DNA of 44,552 nucleotides. Origin: a virus. This document shows, one piece after another, positions 28,793 through 44,552 of this stretch (positions within the stretch are counted from its first letter, which is position 1; every line of letters begins with the position of its first letter). The stretch lies in the IMG/VR virus record IMGVR_UViG_3300049846_003143, positions 1 to 44,552 of that record, one strand, 5' to 3'. The notes beneath the pieces were generated by a model. It did not search any database, was not told the origin of the DNA, and saw only the letters and a list, made by a program, of their open reading frames with translations. A program made the position numbers and the translations under genes.

Positions 28793-29014
28793 CTAAGTTT
28801 GATTCCGGATCCAAATGAAAACGTCGATCAAAGCTTTGCCGTCGACGGGCGTATCTGGATGCGAGGCGTTGTATTTATCAATCGCCTCCACCAGTTGGTC
28901 AGCAATCGCTTCAAAAGCGAGATCCCATACTCGGAGGTGGAAAAGCTTGTAGTCGCGCGCTGGCGTCGTTGCTAGCGCCTGTTCAATGCCAAGCCTGAAC
29001 TTGTCCGTGATCAT
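28793..29014 (-). CDS. Hypothetical protein, 73 aa
   Basis: ATG 29014 lies 3 bases after the stop of the upstream gene. The protein is helical (FRLGIEQALATTPARDYKLF, FEAIADQLVEAIDKYNAS). No motif recognised. It converges with the 28470 gene, the stops being 8 bases apart. Confidence 0.55.
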   Translation of the reverse strand: MITDKFRLGIEQALATTPARDYKLFHLRVWDLAFEAIADQLVEAIDKYNASHPDTPVDGKALIDVFIWIRNQT

Positions 29015-29017
29015 CGG

Positions 29018-29260
29018 TTACCGTCCTGCTGGGCCACGCAGGGCAACGGATCTTTCGCGCGCGAAACAATTGTCCCAGGCCTTGTCTTCATCCACCTCGC
29101 GACATTTGTCGAAGGCGGCGTGGTTGGCCTTGAGCTTTAGGTAAAGGTCGCGGTCACCCATCACAATCAATGCATAGTACGGACTTTTGATGAATAGCGG
29201 CGCACCGTAAATTAGGGCTCCAAGAATGCCGAGAAGTAAACTAAGCTTTAAATAACGCAT
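29018..29260 (-). CDS. Small exported or membrane-anchored protein, 80 aa
   Basis: GGAGGAA precedes ATG 29260. A basic start (MRYLK) and a hydrophobic stretch (LSLLLGILGALIYGAPLFI) form a signal anchor or uncleaved signal peptide; the rest is charged, with two Cys (KCREVDEDKAWDNC) that may pair outside the cytoplasm. Spanin-like or exclusion-type functions are possible. Start codons of this gene and the divergent 29284 gene are only 23 bases apart. Confidence 0.6.
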   Translation of the reverse strand: MRYLKLSLLLGILGALIYGAPLFIKSPYYALIVMGDRDLYLKLKANHAAFDKCREVDEDKAWDNCFARERSVALRGPAGR

Positions 29261-29283
29261 TAAATTCCTCCAGGGGTTTGGTT

Positions 29284-29610
29284 TTGAGCGATCCAGTCAG
29301 TCGAAAAACAAGACAAGCGCAGCAAAAATCTATGGCCGATGCGCGCGATACTGGAAGCACGTGGGAAGGACTCACTCGGCAACGCCTTGAAGCTGCGAAA
29401 CGCGGTGAATGGAGTCCGTGGCTCGGAATCAAACAGTGGGCTCAAGAAATTCCGCTCAATATGAACATCCGCGGGTATGATTCCGGCGCGGCCCATACGA
29501 TTGATGCCAGGGAGGCAGCTTTTCAAGCCGAGAAGAAACGCCTCGAAGACGCTGCGGCAGCCGGTGTTGATCCCGGAATGATTCACTTCATTCCAAGCGG
29601 CGTTAAATAA
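29284..29610 (+). CDS. Hypothetical protein, 108 aa
   Basis: TTG 29284 is preferred because AGGGG lies 7 bases upstream; TTG 29278 is too close to it. The product is soluble, Ala/Glu/Lys/Arg-rich (SRKTRQAQQKSMADARDTGS, REAAFQAEKKRLEDAAAAGV) with WSPWLGIKQWAQEIP in the middle. Composition favours this frame over the opposite-strand frame. It lies alone between minus-strand genes, so its promoter must be distant or inside them. No family recognised. Confidence 0.5.
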   Translation: MSDPVSRKTRQAQQKSMADARDTGSTWEGLTRQRLEAAKRGEWSPWLGIKQWAQEIPLNMNIRGYDSGAAHTIDAREAAFQAEKKRLEDAAAAGVDPGMIHFIPSGVK

Positions 29611-29633
29611 AAAATATATATAATACGCGTGGG

Positions 29634-30467
29634 TCATTTCGGGCCTTCCTCAGTCACCACGCGGGTTTTTGAAATCAGGGGAGCACTCTCTGGGCCTTTG
29701 AGATGTTCCGTCACCCAGGTATTTTCCAAGACTCCATAATTTCCATCGCGGTCTTTGCCAACTTTTCCAGCTGGAAGCGAGCGCCAGTGACCGCGCACTG
29801 ACCAACGGTGCGACCAATCTATCTCGCGGCCATCGTCGGTCTTGGTGTCAATAGATACCAGGCGCTTCGGCCTAACGTGGATCACTCTATTAATTTTAAC
29901 GTGTCTCTTGTTTTTCCCAGTTCCGACTTTAATTTTGTGGCGACCTGGTTCAATACCAGTTTTTTCAACATACAAGCGTTTGATTAACTCGTTTGCGACT
30001 TCGTTAAGGGTAACGGTTAGCATGACTTCGCGTTCGAAATTTTTAGAGCCATCACCACGTGGATATTCAACATACATAAAATACATAAAATGACCGGGGT
30101 CTATTTCAACCGCCATAAAGGCAATAACTGAAACCAGCGGCATTCCATCATCAGCGCGCGGAACGGTGATATAGTTTTCTCCAGCAATTTCTGCTGACCA
30201 AACCTTGAAGGGAGCATCTATTTTTGGTATCTCTCGATTTTCATCTTGCTCGAGTTCCAAAATTTTGAGGCCATCTATTTCTTCGGGGCTATTATTCTTT
30301 GGAGAGAAAACAAATGGCTGGCATTGCTCAACGAATTGAAAAAACATATCGGAATGAAATTCTTCAGGATATTTTTCAATCCTCCGTTCTTGAACTTGAT
30401 TTGGAACAATGACGGCGATTTTTGATTGTCTTTTCGCTTGCTCGATCATTTCCAAAAAGCGTCTCAT
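29634..30467 (-). CDS. Hypothetical protein, 277 aa
   Basis: ATG 30467 shares its A with the stop of the lipoprotein gene (TAATG) and follows GGAGG; a start 18 bases upstream lacks this. The C-terminal 90 residues hold HKIKVGTGKNKRHVKINRVI, then DWSHRWSVRGHWRSLPAG and a GKDRDGNYGV...TWVTEHLKG segment, a module seen in assorted phage and mobile-element proteins of unknown role. The N-terminal half is mixed alpha/beta. Function unknown. Confidence 0.6.
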   Translation of the reverse strand: MRRFLEMIEQAKRQSKIAVIVPNQVQERRIEKYPEEFHSDMFFQFVEQCQPFVFSPKNNSPEEIDGLKILELEQDENREIPKIDAPFKVWSAEIAGENYITVPRADDGMPLVSVIAFMAVEIDPGHFMYFMYVEYPRGDGSKNFEREVMLTVTLNEVANELIKRLYVEKTGIEPGRHKIKVGTGKNKRHVKINRVIHVRPKRLVSIDTKTDDGREIDWSHRWSVRGHWRSLPAGKVGKDRDGNYGVLENTWVTEHLKGPESAPLISKTRVVTEEGPK

Positions 30468-30739
30468 TAGTTTCCTCCAACACACTGACGCGAATACTTA
30501 AGAACGGTACCGTCAACGTTGTAAACTGGGCGCTCGATACAGCTGGTGCGAGTGTCTTGCTCAGTCGGTGGAGTGTATGCTTGGTGTTGGCTCACGTTGA
30601 TGATTGGCGTACCCGTTTGAACTATCTCGATGCGACCAGCCTTGTCGACTAATTTCAAGGCGAGTTCGCGGTCCATAGTAGTAGTTTCATGGGCGCAGGC
30701 TGATAAACCTAAAAACATTATCAATGAAAATTGTTTCAT
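30467..30739 (-). CDS. Small lipoprotein, 90 aa
   Basis: A very short signal peptide ends in the lipobox LSAC (Cys15), so the mature protein would be lipid-anchored; Ala at +2 favours outer-membrane sorting. The rest is polar and Thr/Pro-rich with two Cys (TSCIERPVYN and SRQCVGG). It resembles in size the outer-membrane half of a spanin pair, or a surface lipoprotein that blocks receptors. It is followed by the 277-aa gene and preceded by a second lipoprotein gene. Confidence 0.7.
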   Translation of the reverse strand: MKQFSLIMFLGLSACAHETTTMDRELALKLVDKAGRIEIVQTGTPIINVSQHQAYTPPTEQDTRTSCIERPVYNVDGTVLKYSRQCVGGN

Positions 30740-30752
30740 AAATACTCCTTAT

Positions 30753-31391
30753 TTATTCGTTAACAACCGTTAAGGGTTGAGCAATGGTTAAAGGATCTGA
30801 CGAATCAAAAGACGTAGGCTCAATGCGCGCGAGACGATTGAGCGGTGAGATTAAAGCCGTGCATACTCCAGCCTGATAATAAGACCTGATGTTGATATAG
30901 GTGTTGCCGCTTGCTCCGATGATCTTGAATGCTTGAGTATTAGTTGGCCATGCGCTGTCGTTGGACAAAACGGTGTTCTTAATAATAACCGTCGATGGCG
31001 CCGCGTATGCATTGCCAAAACAATTGTCGGCGTCGAAAAGAACCTTAGTTATTTTCACGCGCGCACCGTCTCCATCATACGCTAAAACGTTTCCGCTGGT
31101 TTTATTGAACACCACAAGATTGAACGATGCGTAGTTGGTGAGAAACGTGATGTTGGATAGATCCGCACCGTTCGCGTCTTGCACGTGAAGCGTTGAAAGA
31201 TCGCCTGAAGCTGAGCTTCCGTCAGCACAGTGAATCGACACGACGCCTTTGGTCTTGCTGAGCGAGCACCCTTGCGTCGCGACCATTTGCTGAGGCGGCC
31301 CACCTTTTGGATTCTTGGAGTCTTGATCGGTCGACTCCTGTTCCTTGCAAGCCGTCAAAGCCAGCAAGCTAACTAATATTAACTGTTTCAT
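30753..31391 (-). CDS. Lipoprotein, 212 aa
   Basis: ATG 31391 follows GGGAGGG. The signal peptide (about 14 residues) ends LTAC with Lys at +2. After a polar linker come SKTKGVVSIHCADGSSASGD and a beta-rich domain with scattered Cys. The module C...G-x-V-x-I-x-C-x-D-G is known from bacterial surface proteins, so the gene may have come from a host. Surface display suggests superinfection exclusion or altered adhesion. The leader resembles that of the 90-aa lipoprotein next door, hinting at duplication of the leader. Confidence 0.75.
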   Translation of the reverse strand: MKQLILVSLLALTACKEQESTDQDSKNPKGGPPQQMVATQGCSLSKTKGVVSIHCADGSSASGDLSTLHVQDANGADLSNITFLTNYASFNLVVFNKTSGNVLAYDGDGARVKITKVLFDADNCFGNAYAAPSTVIIKNTVLSNDSAWPTNTQAFKIIGASGNTYINIRSYYQAGVCTALISPLNRLARIEPTSFDSSDPLTIAQPLTVVNE

Positions 31392-31404
31392 TTTCCATCC
31401 CTCC

Positions 31405-31419
31405 CGCGCATCTTGCGCG
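31405..31419. other. Short hairpin abutting the lipoprotein ribosome-binding site
   Basis: CGCGCA TCT TGCGCG is a perfect 6-bp inverted repeat. On the minus strand it directly precedes GGGAGGG (31405-31399), so it could affect ribosome access or act as a recognition site for the recombinase next door. Confidence 0.4.
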
Positions 31420-31443
31420 ATAAATAAAACCTATTTAAACCGC

Positions 31444-31461
31444 GCGTGTCAGCGGACACGC
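31444..31461. terminator. Hairpin at the end of the recombinase gene
   Basis: GCGTGTC AGCG GACACGC, a perfect 7-bp stem, spans the recombinase stop codon. The following minus-strand sequence is AT-rich with T runs at a distance (GGTTTTATTTATC). It may be a weak terminator or a recombination/operator site. Confidence 0.4.
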
Positions 31462-31961
31462 ATTATCCTTTTGAATTCAGCCGCGCTGTACGCGTAGTCG
31501 GCGTACACCATGGTGTTTTGAATATTCCGGTGCCCGAGCGCTCGTTGAGTGAACCGGATGTCCTTAGTCTTGTCGTACACCCGCATGGCGAACGAGTGCC
31601 TAAGCGAGTGAAACGGCTTGTTCACGGGTCGATACAGTCTCCATATTTCGCCGAGCCGGTTGTATGACAAGTCGAACGGGCGCTCGGGACTCAAGTCCTT
31701 AAGGCGCTTCAGCCCGTCGCGCACGAATTTCGGAACCACAACCGCGCGTTCGCGTCCGTGCTTCAGCGTCTCCAGCATGATTTCGCCGCTCGAAATATTG
31801 ATGTCATTCCAGCCGAGCGCTAAGAGTTCACTCGCACGCGCGCCGGAATAGAGCGCGGTTAGAATCATGACGGCGTTTCGAGTATCGATAAGCATCCGCT
31901 CACGCAGTGTCGTCTCAAGGTGAGACCGCTCGTCGGGGCTCAAAAACTTTTTTGAGTTCAT
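31449..31961 (-). CDS. Tyrosine recombinase, catalytic domain only
   Basis: 170 aa. All catalytic residues can be placed: Arg42 (GARASEL), Lys67 (LKHGRERAVVVP), His118-x-x-Arg121 (HSLRHSFAMR), His144 (LGHRNIQNT) and Tyr153 (MVYADY). Typical integrases are 300-400 aa with an N-terminal DNA-binding and core-binding domain; those are missing. It could integrate the phage, resolve dimers or invert a segment. It is coupled (ATGA) to a 79-aa gene that might supply the missing function. Palindromes beside its stop are candidate sites. Confidence 0.8.
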   Translation of the reverse strand: MNSKKFLSPDERSHLETTLRERMLIDTRNAVMILTALYSGARASELLALGWNDINISSGEIMLETLKHGRERAVVVPKFVRDGLKRLKDLSPERPFDLSYNRLGEIWRLYRPVNKPFHSLRHSFAMRVYDKTKDIRFTQRALGHRNIQNTMVYADYAYSAAEFKRIMRVR

Positions 31962-32197
31962 AATACTTGCCCGCCGCGAGTGTTAATTAACATGAGACCC
32001 AAGACGTCTCCCTTGTCTAGACGTTCCGCATCCCTATAGTGCTCGAAACGCGGCAACGTTTTGTGTGGAACCAACACAATCATTCGTTCCCACGCTAACC
32101 AGTCGGCCAACATTTGTGCGTTCACTTTGCCGTCGTATTCAGTGCCCTCAATGAAGCGGAAGTACAGGTCTCGGATGGGTTTCACTTTGGGTTTCAT
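31958..32197 (-). CDS. Hypothetical protein coupled to recombinase, 79 aa
   Basis: ATG 32197 and the stop at 31958 overlap neighbours by 4 bases. Basic N-terminus (MKPKVKPIRDLYFRF), then a helix (VNAQMLADWLAWERMIVLV) and a charged tail. It could be a small DNA-binding partner or an excision factor for the recombinase, inferred only from coupling. No family recognised. Confidence 0.55.
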   Translation of the reverse strand: MKPKVKPIRDLYFRFIEGTEYDGKVNAQMLADWLAWERMIVLVPHKTLPRFEHYRDAERLDKGDVLGLMLINTRGGQVL

Positions 32198-32478
32198 TTT
32201 GCACCGCCCGTGGCTTTTATAATTGCATCTTGTAGACGGGCTAACTCGTCCGCACTATTCAACCGTGCCGCACACTCCGGCGCATATTTAAATATAGCGT
32301 GCATCAATTTTTGTGCCGCCTCTAACAGTTCCGGAGCCGCCGCAATGAGACGGGCGTCCGATTCGCGGTGAACTGCGTTTCCTATTTTTAACATTGATAT
32401 TCGTCTACCATTAACAGCTTGCCAAATTTCCAATCCGTCTGAAGTCCATGGTCCCGGCGTATGTTTACTTTGTTTCAT
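32194..32478 (-). CDS. Phage protein of the KHTPGPW type, 94 aa
   Basis: ATG 32478 overlaps the end of the upstream gene and follows GAGG. The motif SKHTPGPWTSDGLEIW, then DARLIAAAPELLEAAQKL, is characteristic of a common small phage protein family of unknown function. The C-terminal half is helical. The length is normal for the family. Confidence 0.75.
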   Translation of the reverse strand: MKQSKHTPGPWTSDGLEIWQAVNGRRISMLKIGNAVHRESDARLIAAAPELLEAAQKLMHAIFKYAPECAARLNSADELARLQDAIIKATGGAK

Positions 32479-32647
32479 TGTGAACCTCGTATTTAGAACT
32501 AAACTCAATCACTTTAATTAAAGTATCCAGCGAACGGCTCTTAGATCGGATGACCGCGAACTTTTCGCCCGATTCACTCACGGCAAAACCCATGAGTGAA
32601 CCGATGACTTGCTTTGTTTTGATGTCGATGACTTGAGGGCTATACAT
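32465..32647 (-). CDS. Hypothetical protein, 60 aa
   Basis: ATG 32647 overlaps the end of the 253-aa gene; a longer frame begins upstream but would overlap it by 92 bases. The sequence is a small alpha/beta protein (YSPQVIDIKTKQVIGSLMGF, EKFAVIRSKSRSLDTLIKVI). No family recognised. Coupling at both ends supports translation. Confidence 0.5.
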   Translation of the reverse strand: MYSPQVIDIKTKQVIGSLMGFAVSESGEKFAVIRSKSRSLDTLIKVIEFSSKYEVHNETK

Positions 32648-33401
32648 AGAACACCACGCTTCCAAAGCCGTCGCGGCTGAAGCTATGCAAAGCGTTTTCA
32701 ACGTCGCGTTCCATTGATTCGCGGTCCACAACTTGATGTACAGCGACCTTCCGAGCGGCCCAATGATCGGCGTTGCCGAAATGTTTGCGTGGTATAACTT
32801 CGTAGTCTCGAAATGCGACGCTATTTTCTAAATAGTTTTCAAGACGTCGCTTGTCGCGCTTGAATTTATTTTCAGCGTTGCGGTCTTTGCGGTTCTTTTC
32901 GGCATTGATGACCGACATTTCGATCTTGTTTTTGGAAGCACGTTTCCCGAGCTTTGCCAAAAGCTTGAGTTGTCGTTCGAAGTATTGAATAGAACGTTTT
33001 GATTTAATACGAGCGTATTTGTTTTCGACTATAGCCGTTCCAAGCTCGGAAACGACGTGCTCTAAGGCGACATCAAGATTTTGCAAACCCTTAGGGGCCT
33101 CCAATTCAACGTATCTGATGCCAAGCATCGACAAGACCGAGCGCACCTTCGAAATATGTTTACAGGTTGTCGGGCTGTAGTTGTATGAATTCAATACGAC
33201 GCGCCCCTTGAGGGACTTCGTTAGTTCATACCAATCGTACGAATGTCCAAGCATCGTTTCGGCGTTAAAGTCTACGTTGGTCGCTTTGAATATGTTTAGA
33301 GTCTTGCGGTACTGCAAAGCCGGCTTGGTCTTCATATAGCCTTTTGCGGTCCGGGTTTGAATGTATCTTGCGATCTTGTTTAGTACTGTACTTGTCTTCA
33401 T
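32640..33401 (-). CDS. Unknown basic protein, 253 aa, first gene of the leftward unit
   Basis: ATG 33401 has AAGGAG upstream. The protein is very basic, with Lys/Arg-rich helices (TAKGYMKTKPALQYRKTLNI, KNRKDRNAENKFKRDKRRLE), and a central beta/alpha part (LKGRVVLNSYNYSPTTCKHI, SVLSMLGIRYVELEAP). No known domain was recognised. Its place at the head of the unit, next to a large palindrome-rich region, suggests DNA binding, perhaps an initiator or regulator. This is inference. Confidence 0.65.
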   Translation of the reverse strand: MKTSTVLNKIARYIQTRTAKGYMKTKPALQYRKTLNIFKATNVDFNAETMLGHSYDWYELTKSLKGRVVLNSYNYSPTTCKHISKVRSVLSMLGIRYVELEAPKGLQNLDVALEHVVSELGTAIVENKYARIKSKRSIQYFERQLKLLAKLGKRASKNKIEMSVINAEKNRKDRNAENKFKRDKRRLENYLENSVAFRDYEVIPRKHFGNADHWAARKVAVHQVVDRESMERDVENALHSFSRDGFGSVVFYV

Positions 33402-33495
33402 ATATAGTCTCCTTGTTTTAAGTCCCGGTCGGACTGTTAATTAATTTAGTTCACTCAACTCACAATATACTATTCGGCGCACCGCATAAATAACT

Positions 33496-33512
33496 TTAAC
33501 TAAATTAGTTAA
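33496..33512. promoter_or_regulatory. Operator-like perfect inverted repeat
   Basis: TTAACTAAATTAGTTAA: 8-bp arms around a central A. Partial copies occur at 33439-33451, 20140-20156 and 25930-25939, all in gene-free control regions. It could bind the XRE protein (19629-19868) or another phage regulator. Confidence 0.45.
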
Positions 33513-33740
33513 TATTTAATTGAGACATGGCCATGCCGATTCGGCCGCGAAACGAAATAGCGCGGCGCCCCCTCGCGAGTTAGCGCATTAGCTAATAGGC
33601 GCGCCGGCGCGCGCGAACCGTGTCTTTTGTTCAAATCCCACGTACTTAAGTCTAAGTATCTATTGATCTATTTGAAACTGAATGAGTGATTCTCAATTCA
33701 AGTCATCACTTGAGACGTATCATTCCTAAAATCTTTTATA

Positions 33741-33760
33741 GGGGAGGGAGGGGAGGGGGG
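33741..33760 (+). other. Perfect G-quadruplex motif
   Basis: GGGGAGGGAGGGGAGGGGGG has four G runs joined by single A loops. A CCCCTCC at 33777-33783 could pair with part of it instead. It lies just upstream of the terminase operon, where it could affect transcription, replication or packaging. Confidence 0.6.
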
Positions 33761-33837
33761 AGTCAAGTTGACGATACCCCTCCGAGCGTCCAATTTTTAA
33801 ATTTTTTTCAGTCGATCCGTTGACCTAGTACAGCATC

Positions 33838-34455
33838 ATGCCGTCAATTGTACGTATGCTTCCAGCCACATCACTACCGCTAGAGTCTACACGGGAATTT
33901 GCCCTAACTCTGTTGCGTGACGAATTCGCAAACGCAGCGCACTCGATACCTCCAGACATGGCTTCGATGAATCAAGATCAGTTAGAGGAACTGCGAAAAC
34001 CAACCGAAATTGACTATTTTTTGCGTAAAAAGCTGTGGATTTTGGTGAATTCTGCGCAAAACGGCGCGATTTCTGAGATTCACGGCGTCGATGTTTATAA
34101 AGGAGTTTGTTCGAAGCAGTTGTTCTACAACATTTTGAAGGAGCCAAAGCGAGTCGCGTGGCTTTTGACGGTCCCGCACACCGACCAAGAAATGGTTGAA
34201 GCGGCGTTAAACATCGGACTTCGGAACTTAATGAAGTTTGTTTCGAAGGAGCCAACCGCGGAGACGGCCGGACCGTTCATGAAGGCGGTGGAATTCTTGT
34301 ACAACCGCGTCCACGGTCCGCTGGTCCAGACGACTAGAAATCTCAACGTGAATGTAAACAAAAACCAGACGATTCCATCGCCACAAACGCCAGAGGATGC
34401 GAACAAACGTCTAGAAGAAATCAAAGCAAAGCTCGTAATTGAGGCGCCGAAGTGA
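33838..34455 (+). CDS. Terminase small subunit-like protein
   Basis: 205 aa from ATG 33838, the first start after an in-frame TAG; there is no clear ribosome-binding site, and ATG 33856 is an alternative. A helix-turn-helix-like segment (GVDVYKGVCSKQLFYNILKE) and helical C-terminus (PEDANKRLEEIKAKL) fit a DNA-recognition subunit. It directly precedes and overlaps the large terminase gene, the usual order. It would bind the pac/cos site, probably nearby in the region to the left. Assignment mainly from position and size. Confidence 0.65.
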   Translation: MPSIVRMLPATSLPLESTREFALTLLRDEFANAAHSIPPDMASMNQDQLEELRKPTEIDYFLRKKLWILVNSAQNGAISEIHGVDVYKGVCSKQLFYNILKEPKRVAWLLTVPHTDQEMVEAALNIGLRNLMKFVSKEPTAETAGPFMKAVEFLYNRVHGPLVQTTRNLNVNVNKNQTIPSPQTPEDANKRLEEIKAKLVIEAPK

Positions 34456-36002
34456 ATTTGTCGGCGCTGAGTCCGCAGGAGCTCGCGGAATTAGAAGACA
34501 TCTTAAAATTCCGCGAATCGCTCCCCCATCTTTATGGTTTTCCCTGGTACAAATGGGCGTATGAATTCTTCACTTCATACGAGCACGCGAATTTCCTGTG
34601 TGCTGCGAATCAAGTTTCGAAATCATCGACGCAAATTAGAAAGGCCATAGATTGGGCGACGGACCAAAAAAAATGGCGTGAGCTTTGGCCATCTTTGCTT
34701 CCTGGTCAAAAGCCGAATCAGTTCTGGTATTTTTATCCATCAGCGCCTGTGGCCACGGTTGAGTGGGAAACGAAATGGCTTCCAGACTTCATGCCCAAAA
34801 ACCAGAATGATCCTGTTTACGGTTGGAAGGACGTTTGGGATAAAGGGTTTATTAAACAAATCGAGTTTAATTCCGGCGTCACAATTTATTTTAAGACGTA
34901 CGCGCAAAAGTTAATTGATTTGCAGTCTGGTTCAGTTCACGCGGTTTTCCTGGACGAGGAAGCGCCTGAGCATTTGATGCCGGAAATTCAGGCGCGCTTA
35001 AGAGCGGTGAAGGGATATCTCCACGCGGTTTTTACGGCGACGATTGGTCAGGAGTATTGGCGAAGGGTTATGGAGCCCAAAACGGCTGAGGAAACGCTTT
35101 ATCCTCATGCTCTAAAATTATCGGTGTCACTTTATGATTCACAAAAATATATGGACGGCACACCGTCTCGTTGGACGGATGAGCGGATTGCTGAAGTTAT
35201 CGCCGAGTGCTCGTCGGAGGCTGAGGTACAGCGCCGAGTTTTTGGCCGTTTTGTTAAGTCTGGCGGTCTTCGCTTTGAGTCCTTTGATTTTGATCGCAAT
35301 ATGATTCATCCTCAGCCGGTTCAGCGCGTGTGGGAAAAGTATTCGGGCGTTGATCCAGGTAGCGGGGGTTTGAGCGGTCATCCGGCCGCGATCATTTTTG
35401 TAGCGGTTCGTCCGGACTATAAGGAAGGTTACGTGTTTCGCGGTTGGCGCGGCGACGGTATTCCGACTGCGAATCCTGACATTTTGGACAAATACCGTGA
35501 GCTCAAGCGTGACATGCTGATGACCAGTGCGGTTTACGACTATAAGGACAAGGATTTTTTCTTAATTGCGCAGTCAGCGGGTGAGGCGTTTGAAAAGGCT
35601 AACAAGACTCGGGACGAGGGCTATGGTCTGGTCAATTCTTTGTTCAAAAACGGGATGCTTAAAATTTTCCGCGGCGATCCGGAGTTAGATAAGTTGGTGT
35701 CGGAGTTGATGTCACTCTCGGCGACTGGAGATAAGAGAAAAGCGGCCGATGATTTGTGCGACGCCTTGAGATATTGCTGCATGGCAATACCGTGGGATTT
35801 TTCGGATGTCGGCAAGGATGCAGTGTCCAGGCTTCGTCTTGTTGATGATCCACCAGACCTTCGGTCTGAGGAACAGCGCTTGCGTGAACAAATGGTTGAG
35901 GACAGGCGAAAGTTTGCTTTAGGTATAACCGAAAAGGTTGACGATAGTTACGCGTCTGAGATTGAATTCTGGAACGAGTTAAATGGAGCCGGAAATGACT
36001 GA
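34452..36002 (+). CDS. terL: Terminase large subunit (packaging ATPase/nuclease)
   Basis: 516 aa from GTG 34452. The ATPase has a variant Walker A AANQVSKSST (51-60), Walker B AVFLDEE (164-170) and TAT coupling motif (195-197). The nuclease part has Asp301 (GVDPGSGG), Asp363 (YDYKDKD) and Asp433/Asp437 (AADDLCDALRY). It drives DNA into the head through the portal and cuts concatemers. In the Walker A loop Ser replaces the usual Gly before Lys. It overlaps the upstream and downstream genes. Confidence 0.9.
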   Translation: MNLSALSPQELAELEDILKFRESLPHLYGFPWYKWAYEFFTSYEHANFLCAANQVSKSSTQIRKAIDWATDQKKWRELWPSLLPGQKPNQFWYFYPSAPVATVEWETKWLPDFMPKNQNDPVYGWKDVWDKGFIKQIEFNSGVTIYFKTYAQKLIDLQSGSVHAVFLDEEAPEHLMPEIQARLRAVKGYLHAVFTATIGQEYWRRVMEPKTAEETLYPHALKLSVSLYDSQKYMDGTPSRWTDERIAEVIAECSSEAEVQRRVFGRFVKSGGLRFESFDFDRNMIHPQPVQRVWEKYSGVDPGSGGLSGHPAAIIFVAVRPDYKEGYVFRGWRGDGIPTANPDILDKYRELKRDMLMTSAVYDYKDKDFFLIAQSAGEAFEKANKTRDEGYGLVNSLFKNGMLKIFRGDPELDKLVSELMSLSATGDKRKAADDLCDALRYCCMAIPWDFSDVGKDAVSRLRLVDDPPDLRSEEQRLREQMVEDRRKFALGITEKVDDSYASEIEFWNELNGAGND

Positions 36003-42766: not shown

Positions 42767-44552
42767 GTGTCTGACAATCCGCAAACGGAAGTAGAAATTT
42801 CAAATGATAGCGGAAGTCCCGCTCCTGTTTCCGCTACAAGCTGGCCGTTACCTACTGGCGCTGCAACGTCGGCGCTCCAAACGACCGGTAATTCTTCTCT
42901 TTCGTCTATTGATTCAAAGACACCAGCCCTTGTTGGTGGGCGCCAACCAGTGGACGGTTCGGGCGTCACTCAACCTATAAGCGCAGTCTCGTTGCCGCTT
43001 CCCACGGGAGCGGCGACATCTAGTCTTCAGACAACTGGCAACACGTCATTGTCATCGATTGATTCAAAAACGCCTGCACTCGTCGGCGGACGCCAACCGG
43101 TTGACGGATCTGGTGTCACTCAGCCAATTAGTGCGGTGTCTTTGCCTTTGCCAACTGGTGCCGCAACAGCTGCGAATCAATCGTCTGAATTAGTTTTGAT
43201 TGGAGCCGTTAACGAAACGGCTCCTGGAACGGACACAGCATCAAGCGGTTTGAACGGACGCCTTCAGCGGATTGCGCAAAATATCACGAATCTCAATACT
43301 TCCGTTGCGGCTCCGTCTGTTGCAGTATCAACAGGTGATTCGACACCTGTTCCGAGCGGATATCAGCAAATTTCTGATCCTTATGCGGTCACGACGCTTC
43401 AGACTGACTACTATGGAAATTTAAATGTCCGCGGACAAGTTCTAACGGACGAAGGATCTTTTCGCGACGATTTTTCTGGCTCAGGCTTAACGTCAACGCT
43501 GACTGGAACTTTAACGTTTACGGCATCAGGCCAAACGGTCACTGGCTCTGGAACGCTTTTTACTCAAGAATTAAGCACTGAATCATACATAAAAAAGACA
43601 ACTGATGCGGACGCTTTGTTCGTTCAGGTGCTGCAAATTATTTCAGACACACAATTATTGCTCGCTGATCCATATGGTGGAACGACCGGATCAAGTGCCG
43701 CGACTCTATCGTCATGGATTCGTGTTCTTGGCGGTGGAACAGCGAACGTTGCAAACTCCATCGTGTCGATTGCATCAAGTACAAACGCGAATGGAAAAAC
43801 CTATCTCCAGCGTGCGGGCGACTACGGCCCGATGTCGCTTATTGTTTTGGCATCGGTTTCTCAGCGTATTGCTTCGCAGTTTTCGGTCATTGGGTTTAGG
43901 GATGCTTGGAATAACGTAAACGTTCGCGCTGAATTTAATTTTAATGGAACGAACAATACTCAAGTTCAATGTATCACGGCAACGTCAAGTGCCGCGGCCG
44001 ACATACAAACGACAACGGTGACGTTGCCAGGCGGAGTGACAACTGCGACGGCGCAAAAGTACACGGTTGATGTTGGAATTGAAAAAGTCGCATTTTCAAT
44101 CAATGACGAAATTGTAGCCGTTCACTTCACGCATATTCCATCGAGTTATTCTGTCATGGACGTATTCCTCGGTGTTGACAACAACTCTGTTGCGGTGAGC
44201 TCTACAACTTTAGCAGTGGACTACGCTCACTATAAAAACTTCGATGCTGTACAAGTGTATTCGGAAAGCCCTGGAACTCCAGTTAACAATTCGATTGTTG
44301 GAAAAAGCCCTAGTGGAAACACAAAAATTGTTGGTGTCAGCGATGACTACGGCGCGCTGAACGCACCGGTTAATACTCGCAAAGCCAGCTATTCAGCGTC
44401 GATTGTTGGCTTAACTGCGGCAAATACGGCGACTGACATTTTCACGCTCACTGGAAGTGCCACAAAAACAATTCGCATCACAAAGGTTGAGTTGAGCGCG
44501 ACGCAGACAACGGCCGCGGCGAATAACATTGTGATGCTTAAGCGCTCAACTC
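42767..44552 (+). CDS. Large virion decoration/fibre protein, N-terminal part (3' end cut by window end)
   Basis: GTG 42767 with CGGAAGG upstream. The gene runs open to the window end and continues at 1-435 to a total of 697 aa. It contains two full 50-residue repeats plus a partial third (42848-43168), each starting LPTGAAT and including QTTGNxSLSSIDSKTPALVG. Then come a helical/linker part (GLNGRLQRIAQNITNLNTSV), a beta domain with jelly-roll-like spacing (residues 230-480) and the C-terminal beta domain. It probably projects from the capsid or tail. Confidence 0.8.
   Translation, partial: MSDNPQTEVEISNDSGSPAPVSATSWPLPTGAATSALQTTGNSSLSSIDSKTPALVGGRQPVDGSGVTQPISAVSLPLPTGAATSSLQTTGNTSLSSIDSKTPALVGGRQPVDGSGVTQPISAVSLPLPTGAATAANQSSELVLIGAVNETAPGTDTASSGLNGRLQRIAQNITNLNTSVAAPSVAVSTGDSTPVPSGYQQISDPYAVTTLQTDYYGNLNVRGQVLTDEGSFRDDFSGSGLTSTLTGTLTFTASGQTVTGSGTLFTQELSTESYIKKTTDADALFVQVLQIISDTQLLLADPYGGTTGSSAATLSSWIRVLGGGTANVANSIVSIASSTNANGKTYLQRAGDYGPMSLIVLASVSQRIASQFSVIGFRDAWNNVNVRAEFNFNGTNNTQVQCITATSSAAADIQTTTVTLPGGVTTATAQKYTVDVGIEKVAFSINDEIVAVHFTHIPSSYSVMDVFLGVDNNSVAVSSTTLAVDYAHYKNFDAVQVYSESPGTPVNNSIVGKSPSGNTKIVGVSDDYGALNAPVNTRKASYSASIVGLTAANTATDIFTLTGSATKTIRITKVELSATQTTAAANNIVMLKRST
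42848..43168 (+). repeat. 150-bp tandem repeat inside the virion protein gene
   Basis: Copies at 42848-42997 and 42998-43147 plus 21 bases of a third. The encoded 50 residues are nearly identical (two substitutions, Ala/Ser and Ser/Thr) while the DNA differs at many third codon positions. This indicates an old duplication kept under protein-level selection. Confidence 0.85.
44426..44551. repeat. Terminal direct repeat, right copy
   Basis: Identical to bases 1-126; see the left copy. The reading frame of the 697-aa gene continues through it, so removing one copy gives the circular map of about 44,425 bases. Confidence 0.9.

Follow-up and report, generated by a model that had tools for sequence, protein, structure and literature searches.

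The window, which is the whole 44,552-base IMG/VR contig analysed here, carries a gene for a catalytic-only tyrosine recombinase (YR) of 170 aa (31449..31961, minus strand). This raises the question of whether a recombinase of this size is an intact enzyme or the remainder of a longer one, and of which DNA it would act upon. The reading to which we give about an even chance is that it is a catalytic-only YR acting in the manner of Xer/XerH on a dif-like site, most likely for integration and/or excision or resolution in the window phage.

The protein matches Pfam PF00589 (Phage_integrase) at 2.1e-20, which passes the cut-off, and R42, K67, H118, R121, H144, and Y153 are invariant in 24/24 aligned family members. 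The RKHRH pentad and the nucleophilic tyrosine of the tyrosine recombinase superfamily are therefore present. An AlphaFold (AF2) model made from 24 input sequences has a pLDDT of 92.2 and a pTM of 0.86 and shows the catalytic-domain fold of the superfamily, with XerA (5hxy; Foldseek E 5.9e-9) as the best match in the PDB and XerH-difH (5jk0) as the next. The top NCBIfam models are likewise XerA, XerC, and XerD, with the FimB/FimE-type invertases lower, all of them far under their cut-offs. The frame of the gene is 177 aa in total from stop to stop, therefore no in-frame N-terminal or core-binding (CB) domain can precede the catalytic part. The ORF, this frame, the Pfam match, and the 24/24 invariance bear out the preliminary description, which placed all of the catalytic residues within 170 aa and noted that the core-binding domain is missing. 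The simple YRs of Smyshlyaev et al. 2021 (PMC8138268) have the same pentad and tyrosine, however these are defined there by a CB plus a CAT domain, and the CB domain is absent from the window YR and its family.

The same short form is found in the relatives. The YR homologues of the viral loci L005 and L146 are 58% identical to the window YR and both are 170 aa. Among the best 80 of 189 confirmed loci, 20 viral loci (L145–L164) match the family profile at E ≤ 2.2e-46 and all are 171–205 aa from stop to stop, while the weaker matches of the viral scan (E ≥ 2.9e-28) are a mix of full-length and other short recombinases. Throughout the family the catalytic match starts near the N-terminus; the suggestion that this is a 'minimal' recombinase thus fits the family as a whole. 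In the scan of bacterial genomes, short genes 42–45% identical to the window YR were found in four Bdellovibrionales-type genomes, and 78 of 290 Bdellovibrionota genomes match at E ≤ 1e-20, nearly always in a single copy. Most of these are catalytic-only; G030 has a 312-aa frame, G274 a fragment, and G047 an internal stop. In four host genomes examined, the short YR matches at 1e-75 or better and the YRs of 293–318 aa, the size of XerC/XerD, at about 1e-16 to 1e-12.

The catalytic-only family comes out as a single group of 64 rows in a tree of 122 sequences (support 93/91), and an inner set of 60 rows within it has 95/88. The window YR groups with those of L145, which is on the same contig as L005, and L146 (100/100). 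The chromosomal copies (39/40) form one group together with that of viral L149 (100/96), nested among phage copies. Since the tree is rooted by midpoint only, any direction of YR transfer is a deduction. As judged from sequence, the window YR is an intact member of a distinct catalytic-only YR family and not a remnant.

Other observations were made in the course of these comparisons. L149 is an 87.6 kb viral record with its short YR inside the chromosomal clade, for which host-to-virus capture is possible. After the short YR of L157, L159, and L162 come a small HTH gene and a divergently oriented one whose product is RuvC-like by eye. Short YRs near terminases (L003, L007, and kin) were considered as family members and rejected, as the tree places them in its other half and their second catalytic R is replaced by K. 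L003, L007, L010, L014, and L026 make up a separate short-YR group in which the second catalytic box reads HxxK and not HxxR; some of them lie close to terminase-like genes. Matches in Lactobacillales and Clostridia were dropped; nearly all of the 15 loci checked are full-length integrases, and L044 is a fragment. No description of a catalytic-only YR or of its palindrome in Bdellovibrio was found in the open-licence papers that were searched.

The chromosomal members provide a candidate for the recombination site. Upstream of the short YR there is an 11-6-11 palindrome, most often ACTAAAGCTTA-TAGTTA-TAAGCTTTAGT, in which changes in one arm are compensated in the other (e.g. CTAAAG/CTTTAG versus CTATAG/CTATAG). 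A palindrome whose arms match at 8 or more of 11 positions is present at 29 of the 43 chromosomal loci that were retrieved and scored (a set smaller than the 78 matching genomes); among 712 control segments drawn from the same contigs, 3 have one. With an arm match of at least 4 these figures are 34/43 and 32/712. Site-like sequences outside of the 29 are those of L039 (arm 4 of 11) and of L069, L131, L132, and L133 (arm 5–7). In L038 and L094 the site is displaced by a provirus, and in L090 there are just 351 nt that could be searched. The plain misses upstream of the short YR are L106, L074, L107, L126, L119, and L118. At 3 mismatches the palindrome occurs in exactly one place per genome in 15/17 genomes, and this always adjoins the YR gene except in G065, where a provirus lies in between; in G001 and G096 no palindrome was found genome-wide at this setting. 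The chromosomal YR genes have a divergent HTH gene upstream. Separately, the HTH protein of L095:8128–8718 and its homologues, encoded divergently from the YR across the palindrome, has a probable C-terminal membrane segment (by eye); this protein may regulate the chromosomal short YR.

In G065, the YR gene (287745–288281) and the divergent HTH gene (298128–) are parted by an element of approximately 9.5 kb that encodes an SLT transglycosylase, a tail-collar protein, a packaging-ATPase-like protein, and a catalytic-only YR of its own. The left junction is ACTAAAGAATA-TAACTA-GACGGTGCGCG and the right junction is TCTAAAACATA-TAACTA-TAAGCTTTAGG. Without the element the sequence is ACTAAAGAATA-TAACTA-TAAGCTTTAGG, which is identical to the empty site in G090. 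The provirus is inserted precisely in the central hexamer of the host palindrome. A similar element lies beside the YR in G001, with junctions compatible with insertion in the palindrome. A third provirus of the same kind, of approximately 8–9 kb and with its own short YR, was observed away from the palindrome in G090:C3 (L112:1640–11000); neither the 11-6-11 palindrome search nor the site matrices revealed its att site or junctions.

The palindrome is located close to the terminus. The XerCD dif core CTGATAAGTTATATTATGT is found once in each of 14/14 genomes; in all 14 its distance to the gene of the short YR is 11.0–21.7 kb, and in the HD100-like genome it is 12.4 kb. The dif position in G077, which we take to be B. 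bacteriovorus HD100, is the one given for that strain (PMC2731167), and XerC, XerD, and dif of B. bacteriovorus have been predicted in silico (PMC11318664). As YRs of 293–318 aa were present in 4/4 host genomes checked and a dif core is nearby in 14/14, the short YR should be seen as an additional system.

The closest likeness is to the single-recombinase Xer systems. XerS, XerH, and XerA act as single recombinases, and for XerS and XerH the site is near the gene (PMC5357621); XerH/difH, XerS/difSL, XerA/dif, and the XerL/dif of Legionellales resemble the chromosomal family in having one recombinase with an inverted-repeat site of about 28–31 bp near its gene. The terminus location and the presence of mobile elements that mimic and enter the site are also shared (PMC5357621, PMC9765430), and XerA and XerH are the best fold matches of the window YR. 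In contrast, XerS and XerH are about 354–362 aa and XerC/D 298 aa (PMC5357621), whereas the proteins here are about 170–180 aa and have no core-binding domain. The G065 provirus occupies the middle of a dif-like site of its host and has one good and one degenerate attP arm; in this it also resembles the IMEX, elements that rely on the Xer of the host, among them CTXphi and LME-1, the latter of which integrates at the XerL/dif site of Legionellales and thereby brought that system to light (PMC9765430). The provirus differs from these in that it encodes a short YR itself, one that belongs to the host enzyme's family. It is plausible, if somewhat doubtful, that the Bdellovibrionota carry a second, terminus-linked Xer-like system made up of a single catalytic domain and its own palindrome, that its gene was captured once from phages, and that viruses including the window phage retain copies with which they exploit the host site or interfere with it.

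The window itself presents a different picture from the chromosomes, as a cognate inverted-repeat core site is not found near its YR gene. The host 28-mer scanned over the whole window reaches at best 18 of 28, which is not above chance, and neither the half-site and full-site weight matrices nor the 11-6-11 palindrome search gave a convincing att site in the window. The 20-mers common to the flanks of the window, L005, and L146 are at or within two matches of the maximum from 8 shuffles, and a host-like site was also not found in these two closest relatives. Among 21 phages (the 20 viral loci and the window), the host-site model gives an above-chance match within 3 kb of the YR in L151 only.

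Two hairpins at the end of the YR gene had been put forward as perfect palindromes flanking its stop. Both exist. The one at 31444..31461 (minus strand; GCGTGTC-AGCG-GACACGC, 7-bp stem) spans the stop codon (31449–31451); the other, GC-rich one at 31405..31419 (minus strand; CGCGC-ATCTT-GCGCG, 5-bp stem) lies about 30 nt past the stop, just 5' of the ribosome-binding site of the next gene. Neither is beyond chance as a DNA palindrome, since there are 43 perfect 7-bp arms (3–8 nt loops) and 64 perfect 5-bp arms (5-nt loop) window-wide, and the region folds no better than shuffled sequence (z -0.84). The hairpin at the stop codon has a counterpart with a different stem in the same place in L005 and no clear one in L146 (by eye). 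The GC-rich hairpin has counterparts at the same position with different stems and GNRA-like loops in both (by eye). The regions concerned are window 31395–31430, L005 2085–2110, and L146 10555–10585, the window having another type of loop. Conservation of the position and not of the stem sequence suggests that these are RNA elements and not att sites, and the proposal that they are recombination or core sites did not hold up.

The terminal 126 nt of the window (44426..44551, plus strand) are identical to positions 1–126, an assembly overlap, from which it follows that the genome is complete and circularly permuted at about 44.4 kb. The YR gene is part of an apparent minus-strand operon. This begins with a 253-aa protein of unassigned function (32640..33401), which has a homologue near the YR in viral L149, followed by an HTPGPW-type protein, also of unassigned function (32194..32475; phrog_1273, 7.2e-13). 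Downstream of the YR are two genes that are lipoprotein-like by eye, of 212 aa (30753..31391) and 90 aa (30467..30739), with homologues downstream of the YR in L146 and L005, respectively. Divergent from the operon are the terminase genes (33838..36002, plus strand), where 34452–36002 matches phage terminase and 33838–34455 is assigned as the small subunit by position only. The YR gene is therefore located with lipoprotein-like genes beside the terminase and not in a recognised lysogeny module. The window also encodes SSB, an AAA protein, a PDDEXK nuclease-like protein, a GH108 endolysin, Dam, a VapE/prim-pol protein, and one Xre-like regulator. Homologues of its terminase are found in prophages in 5/290 Bdellovibrionota genomes, and G137, G035, G253, and G235 carry prophages with matches to several of its structural proteins; the host of the phage is likely to belong to the Bdellovibrionota. 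The related prophage in G137 has a short YR beside a lipoprotein-like gene and an HTPGPW gene, of which the HTPGPW gene lies two genes upstream of the YR. The primase has a homologue in 1/290 genomes, with a 407-aa integrase-like ORF nearby (by eye), and a search with this primase found no integrated copy of the window phage among the 290.

It is conceivable, on balance rather unlikely, that the YR does not integrate the phage and that, ahead of packaging, it resolves multimers or branched products of replication, as Cre does for the plasmid form of P1. In keeping with this, the YR adjoins terminase-like genes in the window, in L150 (by homology to the window), and in L158, L161, L163, and L164 (by eye), and a separate full-length integrase accompanies the short YR in the G137 prophage, where it is 348 aa, and in 4 of 21 viral records. 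However, the other 17 records, including the complete window, have no other YR, a PF00239 serine recombinase is present in none of the 21, provirus members of the family sit inserted at the host site, and no duplicated resolution site was found. That the gene is a truncated, decaying integrase is scarcely credible. The YR is half the usual length, yet relatives that are 42% diverged have equal length, the catalytic residues are kept in 24/24, and the catalytic-only form is family-wide; the idea of a remnant of full-length relatives is contradicted by the 170-aa homologues and by the tree.

A further possibility is a split integrase, in which the 79-aa protein encoded directly upstream (31958..32197, minus strand) supplies the core-binding domain in trans. 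The overlap of the two genes that was described initially is confirmed at 4 nt, and in L005 and L146 a gene of 77–78 aa is found in the same place, with 23 and 32% identity to the 79-aa protein, whose N-terminus is of the KPxVxPIxxLYxRF type, and M1, P3, L11, Y12, R14, I40, and Y54 invariant among the three. The similarity is weak (E 0.043 by pairwise BLAST with L005). Nevertheless, the split arrangement is very improbable. The 79-aa protein has no match in Pfam or NCBIfam, no significant match in PHROG, and none in the family searches; chromosomal members have the divergent HTH gene upstream instead of a partner; and an insensitive comparison showed, among the matches listed, nothing similar upstream of the other viral members. 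An 80-aa gene in G137 falls in another family. Core-binding domains have an all-alpha fold, whereas the model of the 79-aa protein, unusable at pLDDT 44.6, has a low-confidence shape that is mixed alpha/beta. The protein may be an accessory factor. It is also very improbable that the YR is a FimB/FimE-like DNA invertase with the phage genome as its substrate. FimB and FimE are short YRs, essentially a catalytic domain, and the window YR is near them in size and has weak matches to NF007371 (9.7e-11) and NF007370 (2.8e-8), the NCBIfam tyrosine-type DNA invertases. The two scores, 41.6 and 33.7 bits, fall far short of the cut-offs (222 and 221), the neighbourhood and site architecture differ, and within 29000–34000 no segment is bounded by long perfect repeats in inverted orientation.

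The evidence from the family favours dif-like integration or resolution for the window YR, and we infer its activity, binding mode, and DNA substrate from this. As the sole site-specific recombinase found in the window, it most likely joins the phage circle to a host site and/or excises or resolves it. Protomers would use only their catalytic domain to bind the two inverted arms, of about 11 bp each, of a dif-like core site, and strands would be exchanged in the 6-bp centre through Y153. As suggested by the proviruses, this would amount to an Xer/XerH-like system with a single protein.

Should dif-like recombination be able to do without the core-binding domain, these proteins would be among the smallest tyrosine recombinases for which a natural site is predicted, and a YR this compact would be useful for the study of mechanism and as a compact tool. 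The predatory Bdellovibrionota gain a probable terminus-linked recombination locus that is a landing site for a virus, and the family ties otherwise host-less metagenomic phages to the Bdellovibrionota.
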